64,000 bases of DNA from Rhodopseudomonas palustris. Its GTDB lineage: Bacteria; Pseudomonadota; Alphaproteobacteria; Rhizobiales; Xanthobacteraceae. The DNA lies in contig NZ_QYYD01000005.1 of assembly GCF_003591005.1 (NCBI RefSeq), positions 1 through 64,000 on the forward strand, read 5' to 3'. Below the pieces are notes generated by a model. That model was not told the origin of the DNA. It did no database searches and was given only the letters and a program-made list of their open reading frames with translations. Below, in pieces: positions 436 to 13,959 of the stretch. Each line of letters starts with the position of its first letter. Positions within the stretch are counted from its first letter, which is position 1. A program made the position numbers and the translations under genes.

Positions 436-2253
436 CTACGCCACCGACTTCACGTGTGTCAGCTTTTCCACCTTGCGGATATGTTCGACGGCGTCGTGGG
501 CGGCCTGGCTGTGGGTGAATAACTGGAGCTCTTCGACATCGTGTTCATCGACCGCCGTGATCGCGGTGTCGATGTAGCTGGCGCGATCGGGATCGCTGAG
601 GATCTTGCGGCGTAGGCCATCGATCCACAGCCAGTGCCGCAAATTCTGGCCGAGCTTGAAGGCGGTGCCGAACACCAGCTTCGGATAGAACAGCCACGGC
701 GATTCCACCGGCAACGTCGACCGGCGATCGCGCCGATACTTCAGCCGCAGGATGCCGCCCTGCAGCGGATGCACGCGCTCGATCTTCACCATCGACGAGA
801 ACAGGAAGATCATCGACGCCAGCCGCGACACGCCGCCGCCGGTCGCCGCCGCGCGGCGCAGCAGCCGTTCGATGTGGTCGGCCGAGTAGTACAGATCCCA
901 CGCCTTGAAATACGTGCCTTGCCACTCGTCCCGGCTCATCCGCGGATGCTCCGTTACGGCGTGCTCGATGTCGAAGCGGTTGAGATCGGCATCCATCGGC
1001 GCGCCCTCATTGAACAGCCGCTGGTGATCCTCCGAGCCCGGCAGCGGCGTCAGGCAGAAGAATTCGAGGATGTCGAGCGGCAATTCCTTCTGGATGATCG
1101 CGATGTCCTCGGCGATGCTCTCCGGCGTGTCGTGCGGGAAGCCGAGAATGTAGCCGGCGTAGGTGATCACCCCGGCCTGCTTCCACGCCAGCAGCATCTG
1201 GCGATATTCGGTGATCTTGTTCTGCCGCTTTTTCGCCGATGCCAGGTTTTCGGGGTTAATACTTTCCAGTCCGAGAAACGTCCGCACCACCCCGGCCGCA
1301 CGGGCCTTCTCGATGAAGCCGTCGATCTTGTGACACAGCGTGTCGACCTGGATCACCAGCTTGATATCCTTCTGCCCGGTCGCGGCGAATTCCTGGCGCA
1401 GCGCCGCCAGCCGGTCAAGGATCAACTCCCAATCCTTGTTGCGGGCGAAGTTGTCGTCCGTCATGAAGAACCAGTTGACGCCCTGCGCCATGTTGGCGCG
1501 CACCAGCCGCTCGATATCGTCCGCGCTGCGCCCGCGTGACTTGCGGCCCTGCACGTTGATGATGGTGCAGAACGAACACTGATACGGACAGCCGCGCCCG
1601 GCGTCGAACGAGGTCTGCAGGCTGAACGTGCCCTTGAGATATTGGCGCGGCAGCAGCGGCGTCGGCGCGCCCTCAAGCGCCGGCAGGTCAGGCAGGTAGT
1701 CGTACATCGGCTTCAGCATGCCGGCCGCAGCATCGCGCAGCAGGTTGTCGCAGCGGCCTTCCAGCTCGCCAGCGTACAGGGTGACGCCGAGATCGAGCGC
1801 CTCCTGCAAGTCTTTCTGGATGCCCGGCAGCATCGCAACGCAGCCGGACACATGAAAGCCGCCGATCGCCACCGGCACCCCGGCCGCCCGGAGCGGCCGC
1901 GCGATATCCAGCGCCCGTGGAAACTGGTTCGACTGAACGCCGACCAGGAACACCAGTCCGAAGAAGTCATGCGCGCGGAAGCGTTCGATGATCCTGGATG
2001 GGCGGGTGCGGGTGTTGATTTCATCAGCAGCGGTGATGTCGATATCGACCGCGTCGCCGAGCGCTTTGCGCTGCCGCGAGTCCTCGACCAGACTGTACAC
2101 CACCGCCAATGAGTTCGACGGGATGAACGAACGTACCCATTGGATGACGTAACCCTCGTCGTCGTAGTGCGACGGCTTGATCAGCGCGACCTGAAATCGC
2201 TTGGCGGCGCGTGGCCCGGCATCCGGCCTGCGCGCTTGTAGCTCCCCGCTCAT
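436..2253 (-). CDS. B12-binding-domain radical SAM protein
   Basis: A 605-residue radical SAM enzyme. The [4Fe-4S] site C222-x3-C226-x2-C229 lies in RGCPYQCSFC, and a GFP motif of the radical SAM barrel follows in ILGFPHDTPES. Residues 20-190 resemble the cobalamin-binding-like N-terminal domain of this superfamily (FLVGVQSNQFPRAL, then VAIGGFHVSG). The C-terminal ~130 residues are an arginine-rich extension I do not recognise. I chose ATG 2253 because GAGGGG sits 7 bases upstream; an in-frame ATG at 2271 is the alternative. It stands alone, with 239 bp without a gene before it. The reaction cannot be told from sequence; a methyltransferase or ring-forming role is typical of the family but unproven here. 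Confidence 0.85.
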   Translation of the reverse strand: MSGELQARRPDAGPRAAKRFQVALIKPSHYDDEGYVIQWVRSFIPSNSLAVVYSLVEDSRQRKALGDAVDIDITAADEINTRTRPSRIIERFRAHDFFGLVFLVGVQSNQFPRALDIARPLRAAGVPVAIGGFHVSGCVAMLPGIQKDLQEALDLGVTLYAGELEGRCDNLLRDAAAGMLKPMYDYLPDLPALEGAPTPLLPRQYLKGTFSLQTSFDAGRGCPYQCSFCTIINVQGRKSRGRSADDIERLVRANMAQGVNWFFMTDDNFARNKDWELILDRLAALRQEFAATGQKDIKLVIQVDTLCHKIDGFIEKARAAGVVRTFLGLESINPENLASAKKRQNKITEYRQMLLAWKQAGVITYAGYILGFPHDTPESIAEDIAIIQKELPLDILEFFCLTPLPGSEDHQRLFNEGAPMDADLNRFDIEHAVTEHPRMSRDEWQGTYFKAWDLYYSADHIERLLRRAAATGGGVSRLASMIFLFSSMVKIERVHPLQGGILRLKYRRDRRSTLPVESPWLFYPKLVFGTAFKLGQNLRHWLWIDGLRRKILSDPDRASYIDTAITAVDEHDVEELQLFTHSQAAHDAVEHIRKVEKLTHVKSVA

Positions 2254-2492
2254 GGCACTTCCCCTCGCCATCCATCACCGCGACCGGACGTCCAGCCGAT
2301 CACCGACAGGTTGGCGCGGCAGGGCCGCTGGTATCAAGCTAACTTGAGGACAAACCCGCAACTATTCGCTGCGACTTCGTCGCAAACGGTCATTCGAGCT
2401 ACACCGCGTGCGCGAACGGGATATCGCTGTACAATTCGACACAATTCGACGGCCCGACCGCTACTAACTAGGTACCACTAGGCACCGAAGCA

Positions 2493-5059: not shown

Positions 5060-7378
5060 TCAGCGCCACTGCTTCTCCTCGGCCGACCATGCCCAGCCGG
5101 GTAGCTTGCCGGGCTTGCTGAATGCCGTGACCACATTGCCGAGCAGGCGCGAGACGTTGTTGTCGAAATTTCGATACGGCAGCGACTGGCTGAACGCGAT
5201 CGACCCGGTGGAGAACACCGCGCCGTCGTTCGGCGCCGTGAAGTACACCATGTCGGCGCGCACGCGATAATCGTGCGATCCGGACAGGCCGGGATAAGGA
5301 TAGAGCACCTCCTCCACCACGGTCTGATAATTGTCGCTGTGCCCGCCCGACGACGCAACGATCAGCGAGTGCGGCGGCGTGCCGAGCGTCAGATCGTAGC
5401 GATCGATCTCGATACCGCCCGCAGCCCCCTGAGCCAGGCCGAAATCGCCGATGATCTCGCCCTCGATCCCGTCCATGATCCACGACGCACGGCGATGCCA
5501 GCTATCCGGCATCCGGCGGAACGGACGCGCCGAGTCGAACCCTTCCGAGATGAAGCCGACGCCGAACACTTTTTGCGGGGGGCGGCCGAGGTCTTTCCAA
5601 AGCCCGCTCTTCTGGCCCGTTGTCGCCATGTAATACTCGCCCGGCCGCGCCTGCCACGCCCGCATCCCGGAGTTCAACTTGCGCACCTCCATGCACCACG
5701 GATCTTCACTGTGGTAGCCGACATTCCAGTAAAAGCCGTTGCCGCCGAGATAGATGAAGCGACCTCCCGCCGCGATGTAATCCTCGGTCGCGTCCAGCAT
5801 CTTCTCCGAAGTGTATTCCGGATGGGTGCCGCTCAGCACCACGCTATAGGGCTTCAGCGCGTCGACGCCGTCGCGGTGCAGATCCTCATCGGTGGTGATC
5901 TCGTAATCGTAGCCCATGTGGTCGAGCCAGGCGATGATCGACAGATCGGCGGGGAACTGCCACGTCACGCCCATTGATGACATGCGGGCCTTGGGACGCA
6001 TGTTCAGGATCGGCCGCCGATAGGTGCTGTAGCAGACCCCTGCCCCGTCGGCGTGATGATCGTATAGCGACAAGCCGAATTCCGCGGTCTGATAGAGCTC
6101 AATATCGACCTCCGACAGAATTGGCGACTGACCGGCGAGCGGCTGCATGATCTCGGCGTCGAAGCTGAGATGCTCGTTGGCATAGGCCAGATAGCTTCCG
6201 GTTGGCACCAGAAACAGGATCGGCGCTTTCGGCTTGAGCGGGCGGACGAAGAACACGATGTATTCCTCGCGCATTCCCTTTGCGTCGCCGGTCCGCAGAC
6301 GAAACGCGTAGGCGCCGCTCTTGACGTCGGGGACCTTGATCGACCTCGTCAGCTCCCATTTGCAGTCGATGATGGCGTCGTCGTGAAACTCGATGCCGCC
6401 ATATTGTTGCGGCGCGAGCCGGAAACAATCGTCTTTGCCCTGCCAATTGAAGCCTGTCTGAGCCCGAACGGGCCGGTTGTAACCGGCGGCATGCAGACCG
6501 TAAGGCCCTGCATCGATCACCTCGTCACCGATGCCGTGCTCGGTGTAGCCCTGCGTGGTGTCCCAGAACGCCAGCAATCCGTTCTGCGGCGGCATGCCGC
6601 TGTCGCGGTAGCTGTCCAGCTCGGCGCGCGTCAGCACGCGGTCGAACACGGAGGGACGATCCAGCTTGCCGTTCAGGCACTGGGTGACGAAGTCGCCGCG
6701 CAGCGTGTGATGATCGCGCGCGCCGGCCAGAAGGAATGGCAGTTCCGGCGGATTGGCCGGCCGGAAGCGCAGCGTCTCGCGGACGTGCGATCGGAAATCG
6801 ACATTGGCGACCTTGCTGAGCAGCGAATTGTACCTGGTGGCCACACCTTCCTGGTACAGCGTCGCAACGCCGGTCTTGGCATCGAACGTCGCCGCCACGA
6901 AGTACCAATTGTTCTTCAGAATCGGCACTTCGGCATCGAGATAATCGACCTCGCCGCCATCGCCGAAGCCGAACTCAAGGAAGCCGTCCGGATTGAGCCA
7001 TAACCCATAGCCCCGGTTGCCGAACGCATCCCACCGGCCGAGCAGACATTGCCGGCGGCCGCCGCCCGGGCTGTTGGCATGGATGAACGTGCACAGGCTG
7101 AAGCTGCCGTTCAAAGCCAGACGCCGCTCGGGGTCTGCCACGGTCAGGAACGAGCCGACCTGGGTGAACTGCTTGCGGACTTTCCATACCCCATTGGCGT
7201 CGGAGGCGATCTCCTCCTCCTTGTAGCCCGGACCGGCGGGATGCGCGTCGCCATGGATCAGGCGGACCAGTTGTGCATCGACGACATCGGTGCCGTCGGC
7301 ATGTACGTAGAACGAGATGTCGTCGCCGGGCTTGACCGAAATCTTGTCCGCGTATCCGAATATCTTCTTCTCGGCCAT
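5060..7378 (-). CDS. N,N-dimethylformamidase-like large subunit (amidohydrolase)
   Basis: A 772-residue protein closely resembling the large subunit of N,N-dimethylformamidase (DMFase, ~762 residues), which hydrolyses DMF to dimethylamine and formate. Residues ~85-250 form a LamG/concanavalin-like domain (CTFIHANSPGGGRRQ, then VAATFDAKTGVATLYQ); residues ~380-750 form the catalytic half. The mononuclear iron ligands I recall from the Paracoccus enzyme (Tyr399, Tyr440, Glu521) have counterparts here: Tyr399 in GSYLAYAN, Tyr439 in GLSLYDHH and Glu521 in GTHPEYTSE. No signal peptide, so it acts in the cytosol. GGAGAAG precedes the ATG. It is the last gene of the amide transport operon, 37 bp after the permease fused to the small-subunit domain. 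The true substrate may be another small amide. Confidence 0.88.
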   Translation of the reverse strand: MAEKKIFGYADKISVKPGDDISFYVHADGTDVVDAQLVRLIHGDAHPAGPGYKEEEIASDANGVWKVRKQFTQVGSFLTVADPERRLALNGSFSLCTFIHANSPGGGRRQCLLGRWDAFGNRGYGLWLNPDGFLEFGFGDGGEVDYLDAEVPILKNNWYFVAATFDAKTGVATLYQEGVATRYNSLLSKVANVDFRSHVRETLRFRPANPPELPFLLAGARDHHTLRGDFVTQCLNGKLDRPSVFDRVLTRAELDSYRDSGMPPQNGLLAFWDTTQGYTEHGIGDEVIDAGPYGLHAAGYNRPVRAQTGFNWQGKDDCFRLAPQQYGGIEFHDDAIIDCKWELTRSIKVPDVKSGAYAFRLRTGDAKGMREEYIVFFVRPLKPKAPILFLVPTGSYLAYANEHLSFDAEIMQPLAGQSPILSEVDIELYQTAEFGLSLYDHHADGAGVCYSTYRRPILNMRPKARMSSMGVTWQFPADLSIIAWLDHMGYDYEITTDEDLHRDGVDALKPYSVVLSGTHPEYTSEKMLDATEDYIAAGGRFIYLGGNGFYWNVGYHSEDPWCMEVRKLNSGMRAWQARPGEYYMATTGQKSGLWKDLGRPPQKVFGVGFISEGFDSARPFRRMPDSWHRRASWIMDGIEGEIIGDFGLAQGAAGGIEIDRYDLTLGTPPHSLIVASSGGHSDNYQTVVEEVLYPYPGLSGSHDYRVRADMVYFTAPNDGAVFSTGSIAFSQSLPYRNFDNNVSRLLGNVVTAFSKPGKLPGWAWSAEEKQWR

Positions 7379-7415: not shown

Positions 7416-9071
7416 TCAGGTTTCGAGCAGGTCTTGCACGCGGCGCAGGAACAGCGCGTGATAGGCTTCGTCGGGCGTCTCGTAGTTGCGGTCCTCGACC
7501 ATGCGCGGCGCCGTGCCGCGATGGCCGGACAACGCGACGATGCGATAGGCCTTGAATTCCTCCAGCACCATGATGGCGTATTTGTCGATCTGGCCCTGGC
7601 GGCGGAAATAGATCAGCAGGCGTTCGAGCGCTTCGCTGTGCTGGCCGAGCGGCTTGGACTTGTGCTCGGCGATCACCGCGTCCGACACCAGGCGCTTGAG
7701 GAAGTCGCGCTGCATCTTGTCGAAACGGCGGAAATAGACCTGATCCTTGTCTTCGACCTCGGTGGCTTCTTCGGGCAACATCTCGCCCCCTTTCTCGGCT
7801 CGGGTTGATCGCCGCTCGCTCTTCTTCTTGTCGCGCCAGGCACGGAACTGCGATTTGACGCCGAAGATGCCGCCACGCAGAAACAGCACCACGCCGAGCA
7901 TGATCGCGCCGATCAGTACGAAGCGCAGCGGCCCGAGATCGATCAGCACACGATCGATGAACACCACGATCAGCGTGCCGGCGACAGCGCCTTCGGCGCG
8001 CCCGATGCCGCCGATCACCAGCATCGCCAGCGACAGCAGCAGCGTGTCGAACGAGAACAGGTTCGGCGAGGCGCCGCCGAAATGGGTCGCGTAAAAGCCG
8101 CCGATGAAGCCGAGCGCCGCCGACGAGATCAGGAACACCATGATGCGGGCGCGGATGAAATCGACCCCGCAGGCCTGCGCGAAGCCCTCCTTCTTCTCCT
8201 GCGCCATCCGCAGCAGCCGGCCGAGCCGCTTGCCGTCGACGAAGCGATACAGGAACAGCCCGAGGATCATGACGAGCAGCGCGACGTAGTAGCCGACCAG
8301 CAAGCGGTTGGATTGCGACAGCCATGTCGGCAAATAGCTCGGCGCGCCATAGAGGCCGCCGGTCGCCGAGCCGAACTGGCGCGACTGCACCACATAGACT
8401 CGGCACAGTTCGACGACGCCGAGCGTCAGCAAGGCGTAGTAGAAGCCGTCGAGCCGCATCGCGGGCAGCGCGATCAGAAGCCCGAAGGCCAGACCGATCA
8501 GCGCACCCGCGAGCGGCAGCAGCCACCACGGCAGGCCGAGCATGATCGCCATATAGGTGGTGCCATAAGCGGCCGCGCCGACCACCGCATAGGTGGCGAG
8601 CGAGAAGATGCCGGCCGTGCCGACCACAAGCATCCAGCACAGGTTGATCGCCGCATAGATGGCGAACACCGAGGCCGCCGACATCACCGTATTGTAGGAG
8701 CTGACCGGCACGAACAGCGGCATGATGAAGAACGCCGCCAGCGCCAGCGTCCACCAGATCGGCCGCTTGTCGACGATGGTCTTCTCGCGGCGCATCGTCT
8801 TCGGATTGTACTCGCCGTGGATGTTCAGTACGCGCCGGCGTGTCGGCCAATAGCGCGTCCGGGTCCACAGCGCGCCGCCGTGGCCGGGCCATTTGTAGTA
8901 ATAGCGCAGCCGGCCGACCGGATACATCTTGGGCCGGAATCGCGTCGTCTCGTCCCACGTCACCTGATGCGACAGATGCGGGTTGGTCACCACCTCGCGC
9001 GCCGGGGTCTCGGGATGCTGGGAGTCGGTGGGATCGATCCACATCGGGGCGGTCGTGTCGGCCATCGTCAT
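7416..9071 (-). CDS. LivM-type ABC permease fused to a DMFase small-subunit-like domain
   Basis: A 551-residue fusion. Residues 1-105 are a charged, aromatic-rich N-terminal extension. Residues ~106-400 are a LivM-family branched-chain-type ABC permease with 8-10 membrane segments and the ATPase-contact region KRLGRLLRMAQEKKEGFAQACGVD. After a charged linker (410-445), residues ~446-551 resemble the DMFase small subunit: a central LLIYFRRQGQIDKYAI, then EEFKAYRIVAL and, near the end, TPDEAYHALFLRRVQDL. The small subunit is normally a separate ~132-residue protein. The tail should face the cytosol, beside the large subunit encoded next. ATG 9071 overlaps the permease gene upstream (ATGA); ATG 9065 is the alternative. 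The frame open to 9476 overlaps that gene and is not real. Confidence 0.9.
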   Translation of the reverse strand: MTMADTTAPMWIDPTDSQHPETPAREVVTNPHLSHQVTWDETTRFRPKMYPVGRLRYYYKWPGHGGALWTRTRYWPTRRRVLNIHGEYNPKTMRREKTIVDKRPIWWTLALAAFFIMPLFVPVSSYNTVMSAASVFAIYAAINLCWMLVVGTAGIFSLATYAVVGAAAYGTTYMAIMLGLPWWLLPLAGALIGLAFGLLIALPAMRLDGFYYALLTLGVVELCRVYVVQSRQFGSATGGLYGAPSYLPTWLSQSNRLLVGYYVALLVMILGLFLYRFVDGKRLGRLLRMAQEKKEGFAQACGVDFIRARIMVFLISSAALGFIGGFYATHFGGASPNLFSFDTLLLSLAMLVIGGIGRAEGAVAGTLIVVFIDRVLIDLGPLRFVLIGAIMLGVVLFLRGGIFGVKSQFRAWRDKKKSERRSTRAEKGGEMLPEEATEVEDKDQVYFRRFDKMQRDFLKRLVSDAVIAEHKSKPLGQHSEALERLLIYFRRQGQIDKYAIMVLEEFKAYRIVALSGHRGTAPRMVEDRNYETPDEAYHALFLRRVQDLLET

Positions 9072-9949
9072 GCCTCGCGCGCCTTGTCGAGAATTCCGGA
9101 GATCCCGCGCGGGCGGATCAAAAGAACCACGATGATGAGCAAAAACTGGGTGATCAGGACGTATTGCCCGCCGAGGAATGTCGAGGTCAGCGACTCGTTG
9201 ACGCCCAGCATGATCGCGCCGATCACCGCACCGGGAATGCTGCCGAGGCCCCCGACCAGTGCAATGCTGAGCCCCTTGATCATGGGCGTGATGCCGCTGA
9301 ACGGCGCGACGTAATAGGTCTGCGCCAGCAGCACAGCCGCCAGGCCGGCGAGCGACCCGGTCAGAGCCATCACATAGATGCTGGTCCGGCGCACGCCGAT
9401 GCCGACGATCGAGGCGGCGTGCGGATTCATCATCATGGCGCGAATTTCGAGGCCGCGCCGGCTCGACCGCATCCACAGCAGGATCAGGGTGAGCAGCACG
9501 ATCGCCGAAACCGAGGCGCCGAGCTTGTCGGACGTCACCACCACGCCGAAAATATCAGCGTTCCAGTTGCCGAACAGCCGCGGCAGGGATTTCGCCCGGG
9601 GGCCGAACCACCACAGCAGGATCTGGTTTCCGACCAGGCTGATCGCCAGCGTGGCGATCAGCGCGCGGAGCGGGAAATTCGGCTTGTCGTGGATCGGGAT
9701 GAAAGCAATCAGGCAGACGAGCAACCCGCCGAACGCGCCTGTCAGGATTCCGGCAGCCATCACGACCACCGGGTAAGGGCCGATATACACACTCGCCAAC
9801 CACGCGCCGTAGCCGGACAGCGCGAAGATGAAGCCGTACGCCATGTTGACGAGGCCAAGGCTCGACCAGGTGACGGAGATGCCGATCGCCAGCGTGCCGT
9901 AGATGCAGGCCAGCGTGATCGCGTTGGTGACGATGAAACCCCAGTTCAT
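9068..9949 (-). CDS. LivH-type ABC transporter permease
   Basis: A 293-residue inner-membrane permease of the LivH family. It has about eight hydrophobic segments and the family start in which NAITLACIYGTLAIGISVTW precedes GLVNMAYGF. The ATPase-coupling loop is GLEIRAMMMNPHAASIVGIGVRR, typical of LivH. It pairs with the LivM-type fusion protein to form the channel of an HAAT-family ABC importer. Its start codon shares a base with the stop of the ATPase gene (TGATG) and its own TGA overlaps the start of the LivM-type gene (ATGA), so translation is probably coupled across the operon. Confidence 0.93.
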   Translation of the reverse strand: MNWGFIVTNAITLACIYGTLAIGISVTWSSLGLVNMAYGFIFALSGYGAWLASVYIGPYPVVVMAAGILTGAFGGLLVCLIAFIPIHDKPNFPLRALIATLAISLVGNQILLWWFGPRAKSLPRLFGNWNADIFGVVVTSDKLGASVSAIVLLTLILLWMRSSRRGLEIRAMMMNPHAASIVGIGVRRTSIYVMALTGSLAGLAAVLLAQTYYVAPFSGITPMIKGLSIALVGGLGSIPGAVIGAIMLGVNESLTSTFLGGQYVLITQFLLIIVVLLIRPRGISGILDKAREA

Positions 9950-10689
9950 CAGTTGCGCTCCATCGACAGGCTCTTGGATGTCGAAGCCTCGCCCTTCAGC
10001 TTGCCGGCGTGCATGCCGATGATGCGGTCGACGCTGCCTTCGAGCAGCGCGACGTTCTGTTCGGCGATCACCATCGCCGAGCCGCCGAGTTCGACCGCCA
10101 TCAGGGCTTCCACCACGGCGCGGCCGATCTTCGGGGCGAGCCCGAGCGAGGGCTCGTCGACGAGAAACAATTCGGCATCGGACATCAGGCCACGGCCGAT
10201 CGACACCATGCGACGCTCGCCGCCCGACAGGCGCCCGACCGGGGTCTTCATCAGCTTCTCGAGCGGCGGGAAGATCTGCAGAATGCGCTTCTTGCGCAGC
10301 CCGCGTTCGGCCCAGGCCCGCTTGGTGAAAGCGCCGCTGTCGAGATGCTCCTCCACCGTCAGGCCGTGGAAGATCTCGTCGCCCTGCGGGATCAGCGCCA
10401 GGCCGCGGCGGACGATGAGATGGGTGTAGCGCCCCGGCCCCTGGCTGCGGGTGCGACCGACCTCGAAGCCGTTGAGCTTGATCGAGCCGCGCTGCCAGCC
10501 GGTCAGTCCGGCGATCGCCTGAAACAGCGTCGACTTGCCGTGCCCATTGAGACCGACGAGGCCGATACGCTCACCGGCGAACACGGTCAGGTCGAGGTCG
10601 TGGATCACGCGCATCGGCCCCCACCCTGCGGAGAGTCCCTTGACGTCCAGGACCGCAGGACGCGCCGAACCGGCTTCGGGTGCAGCCAT
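9949..10689 (-). CDS. LivF-type ABC transporter ATP-binding protein
   Basis: A 246-residue ABC ATPase of the LivF class. Walker A is GLNGHGKST (residues 46-54), the signature is LSGGE (154-158), Walker B is LFLVDEPSLGLAP, and the switch region is VIAEQN. Gln instead of His in that switch is normal for LivF. ATG 10689 is chosen because upstream codons fall inside the preceding gene; the TGATG junction with the upstream ATPase gene gives a one-base overlap. It powers the amide-locus importer together with the LivG-type protein. Confidence 0.93.
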   Translation of the reverse strand: MAAPEAGSARPAVLDVKGLSAGWGPMRVIHDLDLTVFAGERIGLVGLNGHGKSTLFQAIAGLTGWQRGSIKLNGFEVGRTRSQGPGRYTHLIVRRGLALIPQGDEIFHGLTVEEHLDSGAFTKRAWAERGLRKKRILQIFPPLEKLMKTPVGRLSGGERRMVSIGRGLMSDAELFLVDEPSLGLAPKIGRAVVEALMAVELGGSAMVIAEQNVALLEGSVDRIIGMHAGKLKGEASTSKSLSMERN

Positions 10690-11432
10690 CAGTGCATCCC
10701 TCCGCTCGTCTCGGTTTCGAAGTACGCTGCCTTGACACGGGGATTCAGCAGGATCTCCGAGAGCCGCCCCTCGGCGATCGTCTCGCCGGCATCCATCACC
10801 AGGACGCGATCGGCGATCGTATCCAGCAATTCCATGCGGTGCTCGATCAGCACGATCGCAATGTTCAGCTCCTTGGCCAGGACGCGCATGATGTCGTCGA
10901 GTTCGTCGATCTCGGAGTTGATCAGTCCGGCGGCCGGCTCGTCCATCAGCAGCACCGATGGGCGGCGCATCAGCAGGCAGGTCATCAGCAGCTTGCGGCG
11001 GTTGAGTGTGTCGAGGCGATCCGCCATCATCCCACCGGGAATCCGAAAGCCGACCAGCCCCGCGCCCCACTCGGCGTCGTCAGGCGTGAGATAAGGCCGG
11101 TAGGCCTGCCGGGCGGCTTTCAACACCTGCGCGACGGTCATGTCCTCCGGCACGATCGGCGTCTGATAGGTGCGGCCGATGCCGAGCCGCGCCCGCCGAT
11201 GCAGCGGAAGCGGAGTCACGTCCTGACCGTCGTAAGTCACCGTGCCGCTCTTCGGCGAAATTCGGCCGGACAGCACCTCGAACAGGCTGGTCTTGCCGGC
11301 GCCGTTCGGCCCGATGATCCCCATCACCTCGCCCGGCTTCACGTCGAGCGAGATATCGCGCAGGATCGACCGGCCACCGAGATCGAGCGTGATCCGGTCG
11401 CAGGAGAAAATTGCCGAAGCCGCCATCGTCAT
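10689..11432 (-). CDS. LivG-type ABC transporter ATP-binding protein with degenerate signature motif
   Basis: A 247-residue ABC ATPase of the LivG class. Walker A is GPNGAGKTS (41-49), the Q-loop glutamine is in GRTYQTP (about residue 90), Walker B is VLLMDEPAAG (160-169), and the switch His198 is in LIEHRMELL. The signature motif expected just before Walker B, usually LSYGQQ or LSGGQ, reads LDTLNRRKL (140-148) and lacks the Ser-Gly-Gly core. The protein is otherwise intact. The start at 11432 (MTMAAS) follows the binding-protein stop by 10 bp; ATG 11426 is an alternative. Confidence 0.92.
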   Translation of the reverse strand: MTMAASAIFSCDRITLDLGGRSILRDISLDVKPGEVMGIIGPNGAGKTSLFEVLSGRISPKSGTVTYDGQDVTPLPLHRRARLGIGRTYQTPIVPEDMTVAQVLKAARQAYRPYLTPDDAEWGAGLVGFRIPGGMMADRLDTLNRRKLLMTCLLMRRPSVLLMDEPAAGLINSEIDELDDIMRVLAKELNIAIVLIEHRMELLDTIADRVLVMDAGETIAEGRLSEILLNPRVKAAYFETETSGGMH

Positions 11433-11442
11433 CGACCCGGCG

Positions 11443-12738
11443 TTACCACCACGGCGCCTTCTGCAGCTTGTTCTCGACGAGCACGTCCGGATAGATGATC
11501 TTGTGCTCGTTGTTCTGGACCTGGAAGAACAGCTGGGCCATGCCCTTCTCCAGCTCGGCCGCGCCGATCGCATCGCCCGTGTCGGGATAGTGCGCGCATT
11601 CCTGGTAGGGATTGTCCATGCTCATGAAGCCGCACACCCCGCGATAGGAGTTCTTGCGGATCCAGTCGCTGACGCCCTTGAAATTCGACGGATCGCCGAC
11701 CGCCTCCCAGGCCGCCTTGAAATAATAAGTCGTGTCGTAGCCGTTGCCGGTGTAGCAAAGCCCCATGATGCCGGGAAAACGCTTCTTGTACTTGGCGCGG
11801 AACGCCTTGCCTTTTTCATCGGCATAGACGCCGAGCACGGTGCTCCACACGAAGCCTTCGGCGGCGGGACCGGACAGTTCGAGGAACTCCGGCTGCGATG
11901 GGCCGTATTGCAGATACACCAACGCGCCCTTCAGCGGATCGGCGCTGTATTGCTTGACGAAGGCCGCGTATTCGGCCGCGACCCAGTGATCGATCATCAC
12001 CGCCCCGGCCCCGATCTTCTTGATCTCCTGGATCACCGGGCCCCAATCCTGGACCGGATACTGGATGTCGGTGATACCCGCGAGCTTGAACTCACTCTTG
12101 GGCAGCGACGCCTGCAGCGCTTTGGAGATCGTCTGGTTGTAGGCGATCTGCTCCTGAACGATATGCACGCCGTTGTTCAGGGGCTTCCACGTCCCCTGAT
12201 CCTTCATCGCCTTCAGAAACACCGGGAACGTATGTCCATAGTGCACTTCGGACGGGTCCGTCTGGAACACGTGGGAGTATTTGTCGGGCTCCTTGACGAC
12301 CAGGTCGGTCATGTTGCGCTGCGTCAGTCCCCACAGGAATGGCGCCTTGTAGCGGGCCGAAACGTCCGCGACCGGGATCGGCGTGAACACGAAGGCGCAG
12401 GACATCGCGTGCACCTTGGCGTCGATCAGCTTGTTGATTGCCACCTGCCCGCTTTCGGGCGAGAGTGGATCGATATCGACCACGACAGCCTTGATCTGGC
12501 GCCCGAGCACGCCTCCTGCGGCGTTGATTTCTTCAAGGGCCAGCGTGGTTCCGTTGAGATAGTCCTGGTGATCAGCGACGCCCGCCTGGGCGGTTTGAGC
12601 GGTCGGGACGCCGAGCAGGATCGGATCGGCCGACGCCGCGCGCGTGACGCCGGAGACGAAAGGGGCTGGAAATGCAGCAGCAGCCGTGCCGGCTGACGCA
12701 AGTTGCAGCAGTTTGCGACGTGAGACCTTGCCGACCAT
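11443..12738 (-). CDS. Periplasmic substrate-binding protein of the amide/urea-type ABC importer
   Basis: A 431-residue type I periplasmic binding protein. The N terminus carries a twin-arginine-like signal (SRRKLLQLASAG) with a likely cut after TRAASA, before DPILLG. The mature protein resembles the short-chain-amide/urea binding proteins of the AmiC/UrtA/FmdD type, with the conserved ALEEINAAGGVLGRQIKAVV segment. It should capture the substrate in the periplasm and hand it to the LivH/LivM-type channel. GGAGAGG lies 5 bases before ATG 12738. First gene of the operon, facing the AraC-type regulator across a 210-bp divergent promoter region. Confidence 0.92.
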   Translation of the reverse strand: MVGKVSRRKLLQLASAGTAAAAFPAPFVSGVTRAASADPILLGVPTAQTAQAGVADHQDYLNGTTLALEEINAAGGVLGRQIKAVVVDIDPLSPESGQVAINKLIDAKVHAMSCAFVFTPIPVADVSARYKAPFLWGLTQRNMTDLVVKEPDKYSHVFQTDPSEVHYGHTFPVFLKAMKDQGTWKPLNNGVHIVQEQIAYNQTISKALQASLPKSEFKLAGITDIQYPVQDWGPVIQEIKKIGAGAVMIDHWVAAEYAAFVKQYSADPLKGALVYLQYGPSQPEFLELSGPAAEGFVWSTVLGVYADEKGKAFRAKYKKRFPGIMGLCYTGNGYDTTYYFKAAWEAVGDPSNFKGVSDWIRKNSYRGVCGFMSMDNPYQECAHYPDTGDAIGAAELEKGMAQLFFQVQNNEHKIIYPDVLVENKLQKAPWW

Positions 12739-12824
12739 TAAGACCTCTCCATGATGAACGTCCCCCGGACGCTCTGTGTCGAAAGACGGTCTCATCCTAG
12801 GTAGCTGATCAAATTTTGGTCTTT

Positions 12825-12856
12825 CACTGGAAAGCACTGTCTCTACAATTCCAGTG
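12825..12856. promoter_or_regulatory. Inverted repeat, candidate operator of the amide locus
   Basis: CACTGGAA at 12825-12832 is matched by its exact reverse complement TTCCAGTG at 12849-12856. The pentamer CACTG also occurs at 12835-12839 (10 bp, one helical turn, after the first) and at 12857-12861. The element sits midway between the divergently transcribed binding-protein gene and the AraC-type regulator gene, where an AraC-family dimer would be expected to bind. Function is inferred from position and symmetry only. Confidence 0.5.
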
Positions 12857-12948
12857 CACTGCTAACTGCGGCGTGGCACAACAACTAACGGCCCACGGCA
12901 TACTTCTTGCGTTGCTCGGAAAGCTCCCGCTCCAACGAGGTCGCCGCG

Positions 12949-13959
12949 ATGAGTCAGAGGAACCACTATTCGACCGCCTCGCTCTCCGGGTCGGAAAGCA
13001 TCGCCGCCTGGCGCCAGGCGATGGCTGAAGTGTATTATCGGCTTGATATTCAGGCCCGCCACGACGATCGCGTAGTCGGCGAGTTGATCGACGTTCAGTT
13101 TGGCTCGATGGGGTTGTCCAATTTCAGGGCGGATGCGCAGCGTGTGATCAGGCGGAAGGAATCCGCCAAGATCGACGGCTCCGAGGACTTCGTGTTCCTG
13201 TTTCCAACCCGGAAGGGGCTCCAGTTCGAACAACGCGGTCGCACCGGCATGGTGATGCCGGGCGCCGTGTTTCTCCTCAACTCTGCTGAAGATTACGTCA
13301 TCGACGTTCCGGACGGATCGGAAAACATCACCATCAAGGTGGACCGCAGCCTGCTGATCGATCGGGTGAAGGGCATCGACGGGCTGTGCGCGTCGATGAA
13401 CATCGCCAATCCCCAACTCGTCCCGGTTGTGGCGACACTCGGACGACAACTACTCAACCTGCCGCCCGGCGAACACGCCGACCGGCTGCAGCACTCGGTG
13501 ATCGAGCTGATCTGCCTAATGCTGGATCTGCGCGAGTCGCCGCAGGACCGCTCCTTTGTCCGCGAGACGCTCGCCTCCTCGCTCTACAATCGGCTCAACA
13601 GCTACCTGCACCGCAATCTGTCGGATCACGAGCTGTCTCCCGATCAGGCGGCCCGCGAACACAAGATCTCGGTGCGCTACCTGCACAAGATCTTTCACTA
13701 TCACGGTACTTCGTTCGGTCAGCGGCTGTTGGAACTGAGGCTGCAGCGTGCGCGGCAACTGATCTTGCAGCATGGCGGGGCCAGCCACGTCAATCTCGGC
13801 CAGGTCGCCTACGAGTGCGGCTTCACCAGCCAATCCTACTTCTCGACCTGTTACCGCCGGCGCTTTGGACTGACTCCCCGTCAATCCGGCCAGCTTGCGG
13901 ACGAGAGCGCTCCGTCCGAAAATACCGACATCCAGATCCCTGGCGGCACCACTCGGTGA
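12949..13959 (+). CDS. AraC-family transcriptional regulator of the amide locus
   Basis: A 336-residue AraC-family regulator. The N-terminal ~210 residues resemble the AraC-binding-like domain (SMGLSNFRADAQRVIRR, then MPGAVFLLNSAEDYVI). The C-terminal ~105 residues carry the two helix-turn-helix units, ending VAYECGFTSQSYFSTCYRRRFGLTPRQ around residues 290-320. It is transcribed away from the amide operon and probably activates it on sensing an amide or amine. The start is set at ATG 12949, with CGAGG upstream; a TTG at 12907 would add 14 residues. The 236 bp after it hold no gene that I can support. Confidence 0.9.
   Translation: MSQRNHYSTASLSGSESIAAWRQAMAEVYYRLDIQARHDDRVVGELIDVQFGSMGLSNFRADAQRVIRRKESAKIDGSEDFVFLFPTRKGLQFEQRGRTGMVMPGAVFLLNSAEDYVIDVPDGSENITIKVDRSLLIDRVKGIDGLCASMNIANPQLVPVVATLGRQLLNLPPGEHADRLQHSVIELICLMLDLRESPQDRSFVRETLASSLYNRLNSYLHRNLSDHELSPDQAAREHKISVRYLHKIFHYHGTSFGQRLLELRLQRARQLILQHGGASHVNLGQVAYECGFTSQSYFSTCYRRRFGLTPRQSGQLADESAPSENTDIQIPGGTTR

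Follow-up and report, generated by a model that had tools for sequence, protein, structure and literature searches.

Among the closest described relatives of the system considered here is dimethylformamidase (DMFase), which forms an alpha2beta2 unit; in the Paracoccus enzyme the large subunit is inactive without the small one, and the entrance to the active site is formed by both subunits (PMC7686228, in the part available). A second dmfA1-dmfA2 locus of Paracoccus aminophilus is unlinked to the use of dimethylformamide (PMC4543880, likewise in part), so relatives of DMFase may act on other amides. The P. aminophilus small subunit DmfA1 (6lvb_B) is a separate protein of 132 amino acids (aa). 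Here we analyze a gene that shares with it sequence, fold, and adjacency to a large-subunit gene, and in which the small subunit is instead fused to a LivM-type permease of an ATP-binding cassette (ABC) importer and predicted to be made also in free form from an internal start. The gene occupies positions 7416-9071, minus strand, of a 64,000-nucleotide (nt) stretch of Rhodopseudomonas palustris DNA (contig NZ_QYYD01000005.1, positions 1 to 64,000), hereafter the window. The preferred explanation, to which we assign a probability of about 0.72, is that one gene gives the small subunit in two forms, one tethered to the permease and one free, in an operon whose ABC importer and amidohydrolase share this gene.

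Fusions of transporters with soluble partners are exemplified by the peptidase-bearing ABC exporters and by the PII regulators fused to ammonium channels (Amt-PII). To our knowledge, none of them joins a catabolic-enzyme subunit to an ABC importer, and none has a shared subunit made twice. Cas11 may be regarded as the nearest genetic precedent: there, likewise, one gene encodes a large protein whose C-terminal portion is also produced as a small subunit, Cas11 being made by an internal in-frame start of cas8 or cas10, with a separate gene in other subtypes (PMC11899642, in the part available). However, Cas11 belongs to a CRISPR complex and was demonstrated by experiment, whereas the fused permease would serve membrane transport and catabolism, and its second product is predicted. 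For dimethylformamidase together with permease and ABC transporter no paper was found in the open-licence literature, which is weak evidence of absence; the parts available of that literature on DMFase and permeases describe no fusion, and nothing was found there on transporter-enzyme fusions, permease fusions, or a related acylase. The parts are known, and the combination of an importer permease with a DMFase small subunit was not found described in the open-licence literature. Direct coupling of an importer to the first catabolic enzyme has often been proposed and is rarely testable; here, the enzyme subunit sits in the permease.

The fused gene is a single uninterrupted frame of 551 codons plus a stop, with the start ATG at 9071. 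Its permease part (aa 1-428; 7788-9071, minus strand), delimited by the PF02653 match, hydropathy, identities by region, and the ratio of nonsynonymous to synonymous substitution rates (dN/dS) in the linker, consists of an N-terminal extension (aa 1-104, conserved from approximately aa 41), a membrane part (approximately aa 105-402), and a basic linker (aa 403-428). In the domain search, BPD_transp_2 (PF02653) spans aa 131-394 of the fused protein (E 4.4e-22, above the cut-off). This domain is shared with the LivM-type branched-chain amino acid permeases, as is an operon that also encodes a LivH-type partner, a binding protein, and two ATPases. Unlike them, the fused gene has the 104-aa N-terminal extension, the basic linker, and the enzyme-subunit tail, and it falls below the cut-offs of the specific models (LivM, 73.1 bits vs. 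366; UrtC, 50.5 vs. 296.2); the substrate, too, would differ, being probably an amide. The conserved part of the N-terminal extension (aa 41-104, 8760-8951), which precedes the first membrane helix, shows 28-91% identity among the fused loci compared, and the extension may provide a second contact with the enzyme or with the ATPase.

The small-subunit domain (aa 431-551; 7416-7781, minus strand) is defined by homology to 6lvb_B, fold, and the start signature described below. An earlier note on this DNA, made from the letters alone, had described a LivM-type permease with a C-terminal DMFase small-subunit tail, and the searches agree: within the single open frame, the tail searched alone (aa 429-551, phmmer) matches residues 14-127 of the 132 of 6lvb_B with E 6.4e-11. 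The same note placed the tail at residues 446-551; its identity stands, whereas the domain begins earlier, at about M431. The AlphaFold model of the tail alone has a mean predicted local distance difference test score (pLDDT) of 83.8, and the Protein Data Bank (PDB) chains matching it at E<=0.001 are three, all of them DMFase small subunits (6lvv_B, 6lvb_B, and 6lvd_B; template modelling score, TM, 0.72-0.80). The fold, helices and two strands, agrees with 6lvv_B and 6lvb_B at TM 0.79-0.80, which provides the structural match implied by the note. The model of the whole protein is poor (mean pLDDT 56.7), and its best PDB matches are again DMFase small subunits.

As the earlier note had also proposed, the next gene encodes the large subunit (5060-7378, minus strand; 772 aa), a DMFase large-subunit homologue (6lvb_A, E 2.1e-186; PF20254, E 4e-89) and a predicted cytosolic amidohydrolase. 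It begins 37 nt after the stop of the fused gene, so that the small subunit is encoded beside the large one, as in DMFase. By eye, in the alignment with PMC7686228 numbering, it retains the three iron ligands Y399, Y440, and E521 and the catalytic neighbours H519 and N547.

A trivial explanation of the fusion would be an assembly error, a missed stop, or a frameshift that joined two neighbouring genes. A scan of named genomes yielded 17 loci, all of them fused in frame and open through the joint, from Rhodopseudomonas, Tardiphaga, Bradyrhizobium, Methylobacterium, Methylorubrum, Aestuariivirga and relatives, Rhodobacteraceae and Zavarzinia metagenome-assembled genomes (MAGs), a Pelagibacteraceae (SAR11) record, and a gammaproteobacterial MAG. 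Together with 46 further records and the window, 64 records were examined, and 57 frames in them join permease and small subunit, or 52 distinct loci without five duplicates. These 52 are open through the joint by definition, and the weight rests on the scan of 17 loci and on the converse search, made with the permease stripped of its tail. The latter, scoring at most four candidates per genome, covered 397 genomes of the order and found 16 matches to the permease at E<=1e-60, spread over 15 genomes; in every one the permease shares one frame with a tail match (in one case truncated at the end of a contig). Among the 289 records that match in the plasmid collection, 26 span 80% or more of the protein without interruption and with 56.8-77.7% identity, while the next 14 rows among the best 40 of the 289 have 24.9-32.3% identity and end before the tail. 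Four of the 26 were fetched, and all four are open through the joint. Among phage records, two weak matches to the permease part and none with the tail were found. The large-subunit gene lies downstream in 50 of the 52 fused loci, and the remaining two end at contig ends. Joining by error is thus rejected, its probability being practically nil given 52 distinct in-frame loci and single annotated coding sequences in three fetched plasmid records; the missed stop that the earlier note had named as a danger is ruled out, and the survey it suggested has confirmed the fusion as a recurrent one.

Fusion is one of several arrangements of this domain. Relatives of any kind matching the tail profile occur in 33/385 genomes of the class (E<=1e-5), in 39/397 of the order and 19/248 of the family (E<=1e-10), and, at E<=1e-20, in 3/329 of the phylum and in 8/159, 1/1, and 9/18 genomes of three further groups; these samples overlap. 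Only part of them are fused, as judged by long frames with strong matches: 16 genomes in the order survey and 10 in the family survey. In the plasmid collection, 24 of the 26 records are annotated as branched-chain amino acid ABC transporter permeases and two are unannotated there, so that the coupling is easy to overlook.

The joint itself is under selection. In nine pairs of loci (two further pairs were left uncomputed), dN/dS is 0-0.11 in the linker, with saturated dS in one linker pair, and 0-0.23 in the tail; therefore, the joint is translated and selected. Distant loci chosen from the 51 others were compared with the window, and the linker is conserved above the membrane part in 11 of these 13 comparisons, the exceptions being L003 (86 vs. 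87%) and L063 (54 vs. 58%). In three pairs of loci that lack the internal ATG discussed below (L037/L071, L051/L052, and L027/L050), the tail has dN/dS of 0.028-0.055, with dS near saturation in L037/L071; since there is no internal ATG, the tail can act here only as part of the fusion. These data bear on the possibility that the free small subunit is the working part, with the tail of the permease being merely tolerated read-through and making no contact with the large subunit. In the characterised DMFase, two separate chains form a soluble complex (PMC7686228, in the part available), and one relative of the fused loci, L058, has a stand-alone small subunit, both of which agree with a role in supply alone. 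We nevertheless consider it improbable, as the tail is kept in frame by all 16 close permease relatives found in the order, the linker is in most comparisons better conserved than the membrane part, and the tail is strongly constrained even where it could be used only within the fusion.

The earlier note overlooked a probable second start at the joint. There, E-K-G-G-E-M is encoded by GAG AAA GGG GGC GAG ATG, with a purine-rich AAAGG stretch before the ATG. The predicted internal start codon, M431, is at 7779-7781 (minus strand), and the Shine-Dalgarno-like stretch AAAGGGGGC, covering codons K427, G428, and G429, is at 7785-7793 (minus strand). In the alignment, this ATG lies within a few residues of the starts of stand-alone small subunits. 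An ATG at codon 431 or 432 is present in 42 of the 52 fused loci, and its presence varies with whether the small subunit is also encoded separately: it is found in 40/42 loci without a nearby separate small-subunit gene and in 2/10 loci with one (Fisher p 2.5e-6, uncorrected for phylogeny), a separate gene being one located in the flanking sequence retrieved, which extends for up to 6-7 kb or to the contig end. Eight loci have the separate gene and no ATG (L050 being counted via its identical copy L049 in the same genome). Clustering at 90% identity leaves 38 clusters, 28 with the ATG only, seven with the separate gene only, two with both, and one with neither. Hence the rule is a start codon at the domain boundary or, in other lineages, a separate gene in its stead, with four exceptions in 52, namely L039 and L048, where the ATG and a separate gene coexist, and L040 and L042, considered below. 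One further observation concerns L070 on the Aminobacter plasmid pMDW2, where two large-subunit genes lie behind a fused permease whose joint has the ATG and AAAGGAGG; no separate small subunit was found.

An alternative explanation is that only the fused protein is made, the ATG and the purine stretch being either a fossil of an old gene boundary or a by-product of the peptide EKGGEM. It has some merit, as EKGGE is kept even in loci without the ATG, so that part of the Shine-Dalgarno-like stretch is forced by the protein, and most single-locus tests of that stretch are non-significant. The distinction is made by synonymous codon choice, for which 39 loci with the ATG were used and L016, L039, L040, L042, and L048 were set aside. 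In these 39 loci, eight of which have valine at 431 and the ATG one codon later, K427 is AAA in 34, ranking first of 13 conserved lysine columns (median 14%), while G428 leads the 35 glycine columns in the use of GGA, with G429 next, and G428 is other than GGC in 85% (median 28% over the same columns). The eight loci without the ATG have GGC at G428 in every case, and AAG for the lysine in six. Codons 427-436 have the lowest GC content at third codon positions (GC3) of 513 windows along the gene in 27 representatives with the ATG; in the seven representatives without it, the five lowest windows are at the normal start of the gene, and the windows over the joint all fall outside the lowest 286 of 514. 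Around the ATG, 25 of the 27 representatives are predicted to have weaker mRNA structure than their synonymous recodings (mean z 1.28), and in a scan of 28 positions along the gene z is highest at 431 (there with a mean of 1.14). The mean z at the joint is -0.73 in the seven representatives without the ATG, and structure is strong in the two loci where the ATG adjoins a separate gene (L039, -3.25; L048, -2.74; mean -3.0); the 27 differ from the other nine with Mann-Whitney p 3.7e-5. The joint thus carries both the codon signature and the open structure of a start. These codon, GC3, and mRNA signals act at the synonymous level, peak at the joint, and are absent as a group in loci with separate genes, all of which argues against production of the fused protein alone, an explanation that we regard as unlikely and yet as the least unlikely of the alternatives.

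Several observations weigh against the preferred explanation of one gene with two products. Both products are predicted from sequence. L040 and L042 have neither the ATG nor a nearby separate gene; they have TTG at 432, a codon found there also in two loci with a separate gene. The tree of 68 small subunits is poorly resolved; it places the fused loci that have separate genes in about three groups, not all of them resolved, and the branches with good support require no more than one origin of separate genes; thus, the independent support consists of a few events, not ten. Anti-Shine-Dalgarno pairing is stronger than synonymous recoding would predict in only 7 of 52 loci (p<0.05), and Bradyrhizobium and Agrobacterium are among the genera in which it is no stronger than in loci without the ATG; single-locus pairing energy, mostly non-significant, was dropped as proof of a start and counts as a weak point. 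Far from the joint, the lysine columns K60 (8892-8894) and K497 (7581-7583) are also AAA in about 71% of loci with the ATG, the other lysine columns being mostly AAG, and two of the 27 representatives, L003 and L057, show no structure signal. The full-length model is too poor for topology or contacts, and the topology is judged from charge and from the enzyme being expected in the cytosol. Finally, the stand-alone small subunit of the nested relative L058 indicates that the system can do without tethering.

The place of L058 (G289:C56) in the tree deserves a comment. It had been listed as a possible fusion on account of a long frame and was rejected, as there is no permease in that frame and the small subunit stands alone. 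Its small subunit is nested in the fused family, and, because of this nesting and of the interleaving of separate genes, fused tails require three changes on the tree. A reversal of fusion is possible for L058.

Under the preferred explanation, translation from the gene's own start would yield a LivM permease to which the whole DMFase small subunit is attached through a basic linker in the cytosol. The C-terminus is probably cytosolic, as suggested by the basic segment (10 K/R vs. 4 D/E, counted by eye, in residues 403-430 after the last membrane helix) and by a large subunit that by eye has no obvious export signal. The tethered small subunit would then assemble with the large subunit from the next gene, and the amidohydrolase would sit on its own importer. 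Initiation at M431, with its own ribosome site, would give the small subunit alone, of 121 aa, and this free copy would complete the enzyme and also supply soluble enzyme. A LivH-LivM pair provides one tail, and the DMFase core is built from two subunits of each size; an enzyme of this composition would therefore need a free small subunit. A full-length product would follow from the frame, the internal start is supported by the comparison of loci, and binding of the tail to the large subunit would follow from homology. The presence of both products in cells, docking, and stoichiometry are what we infer from these features. If there are indeed two products, the enzyme could be located both on the importer and in the cytosol.

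The tether proposed in the earlier note therefore gains support, and physical coupling of the enzyme to the importer, although still an inference, is favoured, because read-through to the stop carries the small subunit along and the linker and tail are under strong purifying selection. A more elaborate version has even odds in our view: the two starts would split the supply of the small subunit, mixed particles, with one tethered and one free small subunit, would take the amide directly at the exit of the importer, and lineages with separate genes would have lost the internal start and kept the tether. Docking, mixed particles, and channelling of the substrate would all be part of it. PII proteins gate ammonium channels, and by a similar logic the permease-borne small subunit could sense the enzyme or its substrate and gate transport, with no catalysis brought to the membrane. 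The sequence gives this regulatory role no direct support and does not separate it from docking; we consider it very improbable. The family has natural variants that differ in whether they possess the internal start and a separate small-subunit gene, and these are ready-made controls for docking, stoichiometry, and channelling.

Some of these controls are present in the genome of the window itself, where the earlier note overlooked a second fused copy and two stand-alone copies. The second operon (G000:C55:159783-170313; L027:4784-15314) is a complete importer-amidohydrolase set, in which a fused permease of 549 aa precedes two large-subunit genes with a stand-alone small-subunit gene between them; the joint has CTG in place of ATG. 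The third operon (G000:C55, L028:2472-11339) likewise contains ABC importer genes beside a DMFase small and large pair. It differs in that the LivM-like permease, of 368 aa, has no tail and the small subunit is a separate gene of 146 aa, followed by the large subunit. The three operons of this genome are thus natural controls. After the large subunit of the third operon, a frame at L028:2472-3506 (minus strand) resembles, by eye, a Rieske-type oxygenase.

The substrate is probably a small N-substituted amide. The best PDB match of the binding protein is 3h5l, a putative branched-chain amino acid binder (E 7e-44), which is of no help here. In the Pelagibacteraceae locus (L016), the fused permease and large subunit are adjacent to a type III glutamine synthetase and a diaminopropionate ammonia-lyase, and formaldehyde-glutathione genes are near the fused locus in a Rhizobium plasmid record. 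These neighbours are suggestive of C1 or amide metabolism and are not decisive for the substrate. Flotillin-rhodopsin gene clusters, as described in the available part of PMC10308929, also hold a dimethylformamidase and an inner membrane translocator.

The rest of the operon in the window lies upstream of the fused gene, on the same minus strand. It comprises the LivH-type permease partner (9068-9949; PF02653, E 2.2e-33), an ABC ATPase of the LivF/UrtE type (9949-10,722, with an approximate start codon), an ABC ATPase of the LivG/UrtD type (10,689-11,573), and the substrate-binding protein (Peripla_BP_6; 11,443-12,837); for the latter two, the coordinates are those of the listed frames, and the true starts are probably inside. 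A divergent AraC-family regulator follows at 12,907-13,959 on the plus strand. On the other side of the large-subunit gene, a large frame at 436-2271 (minus strand) resembles, by eye, a B12-binding radical SAM protein.
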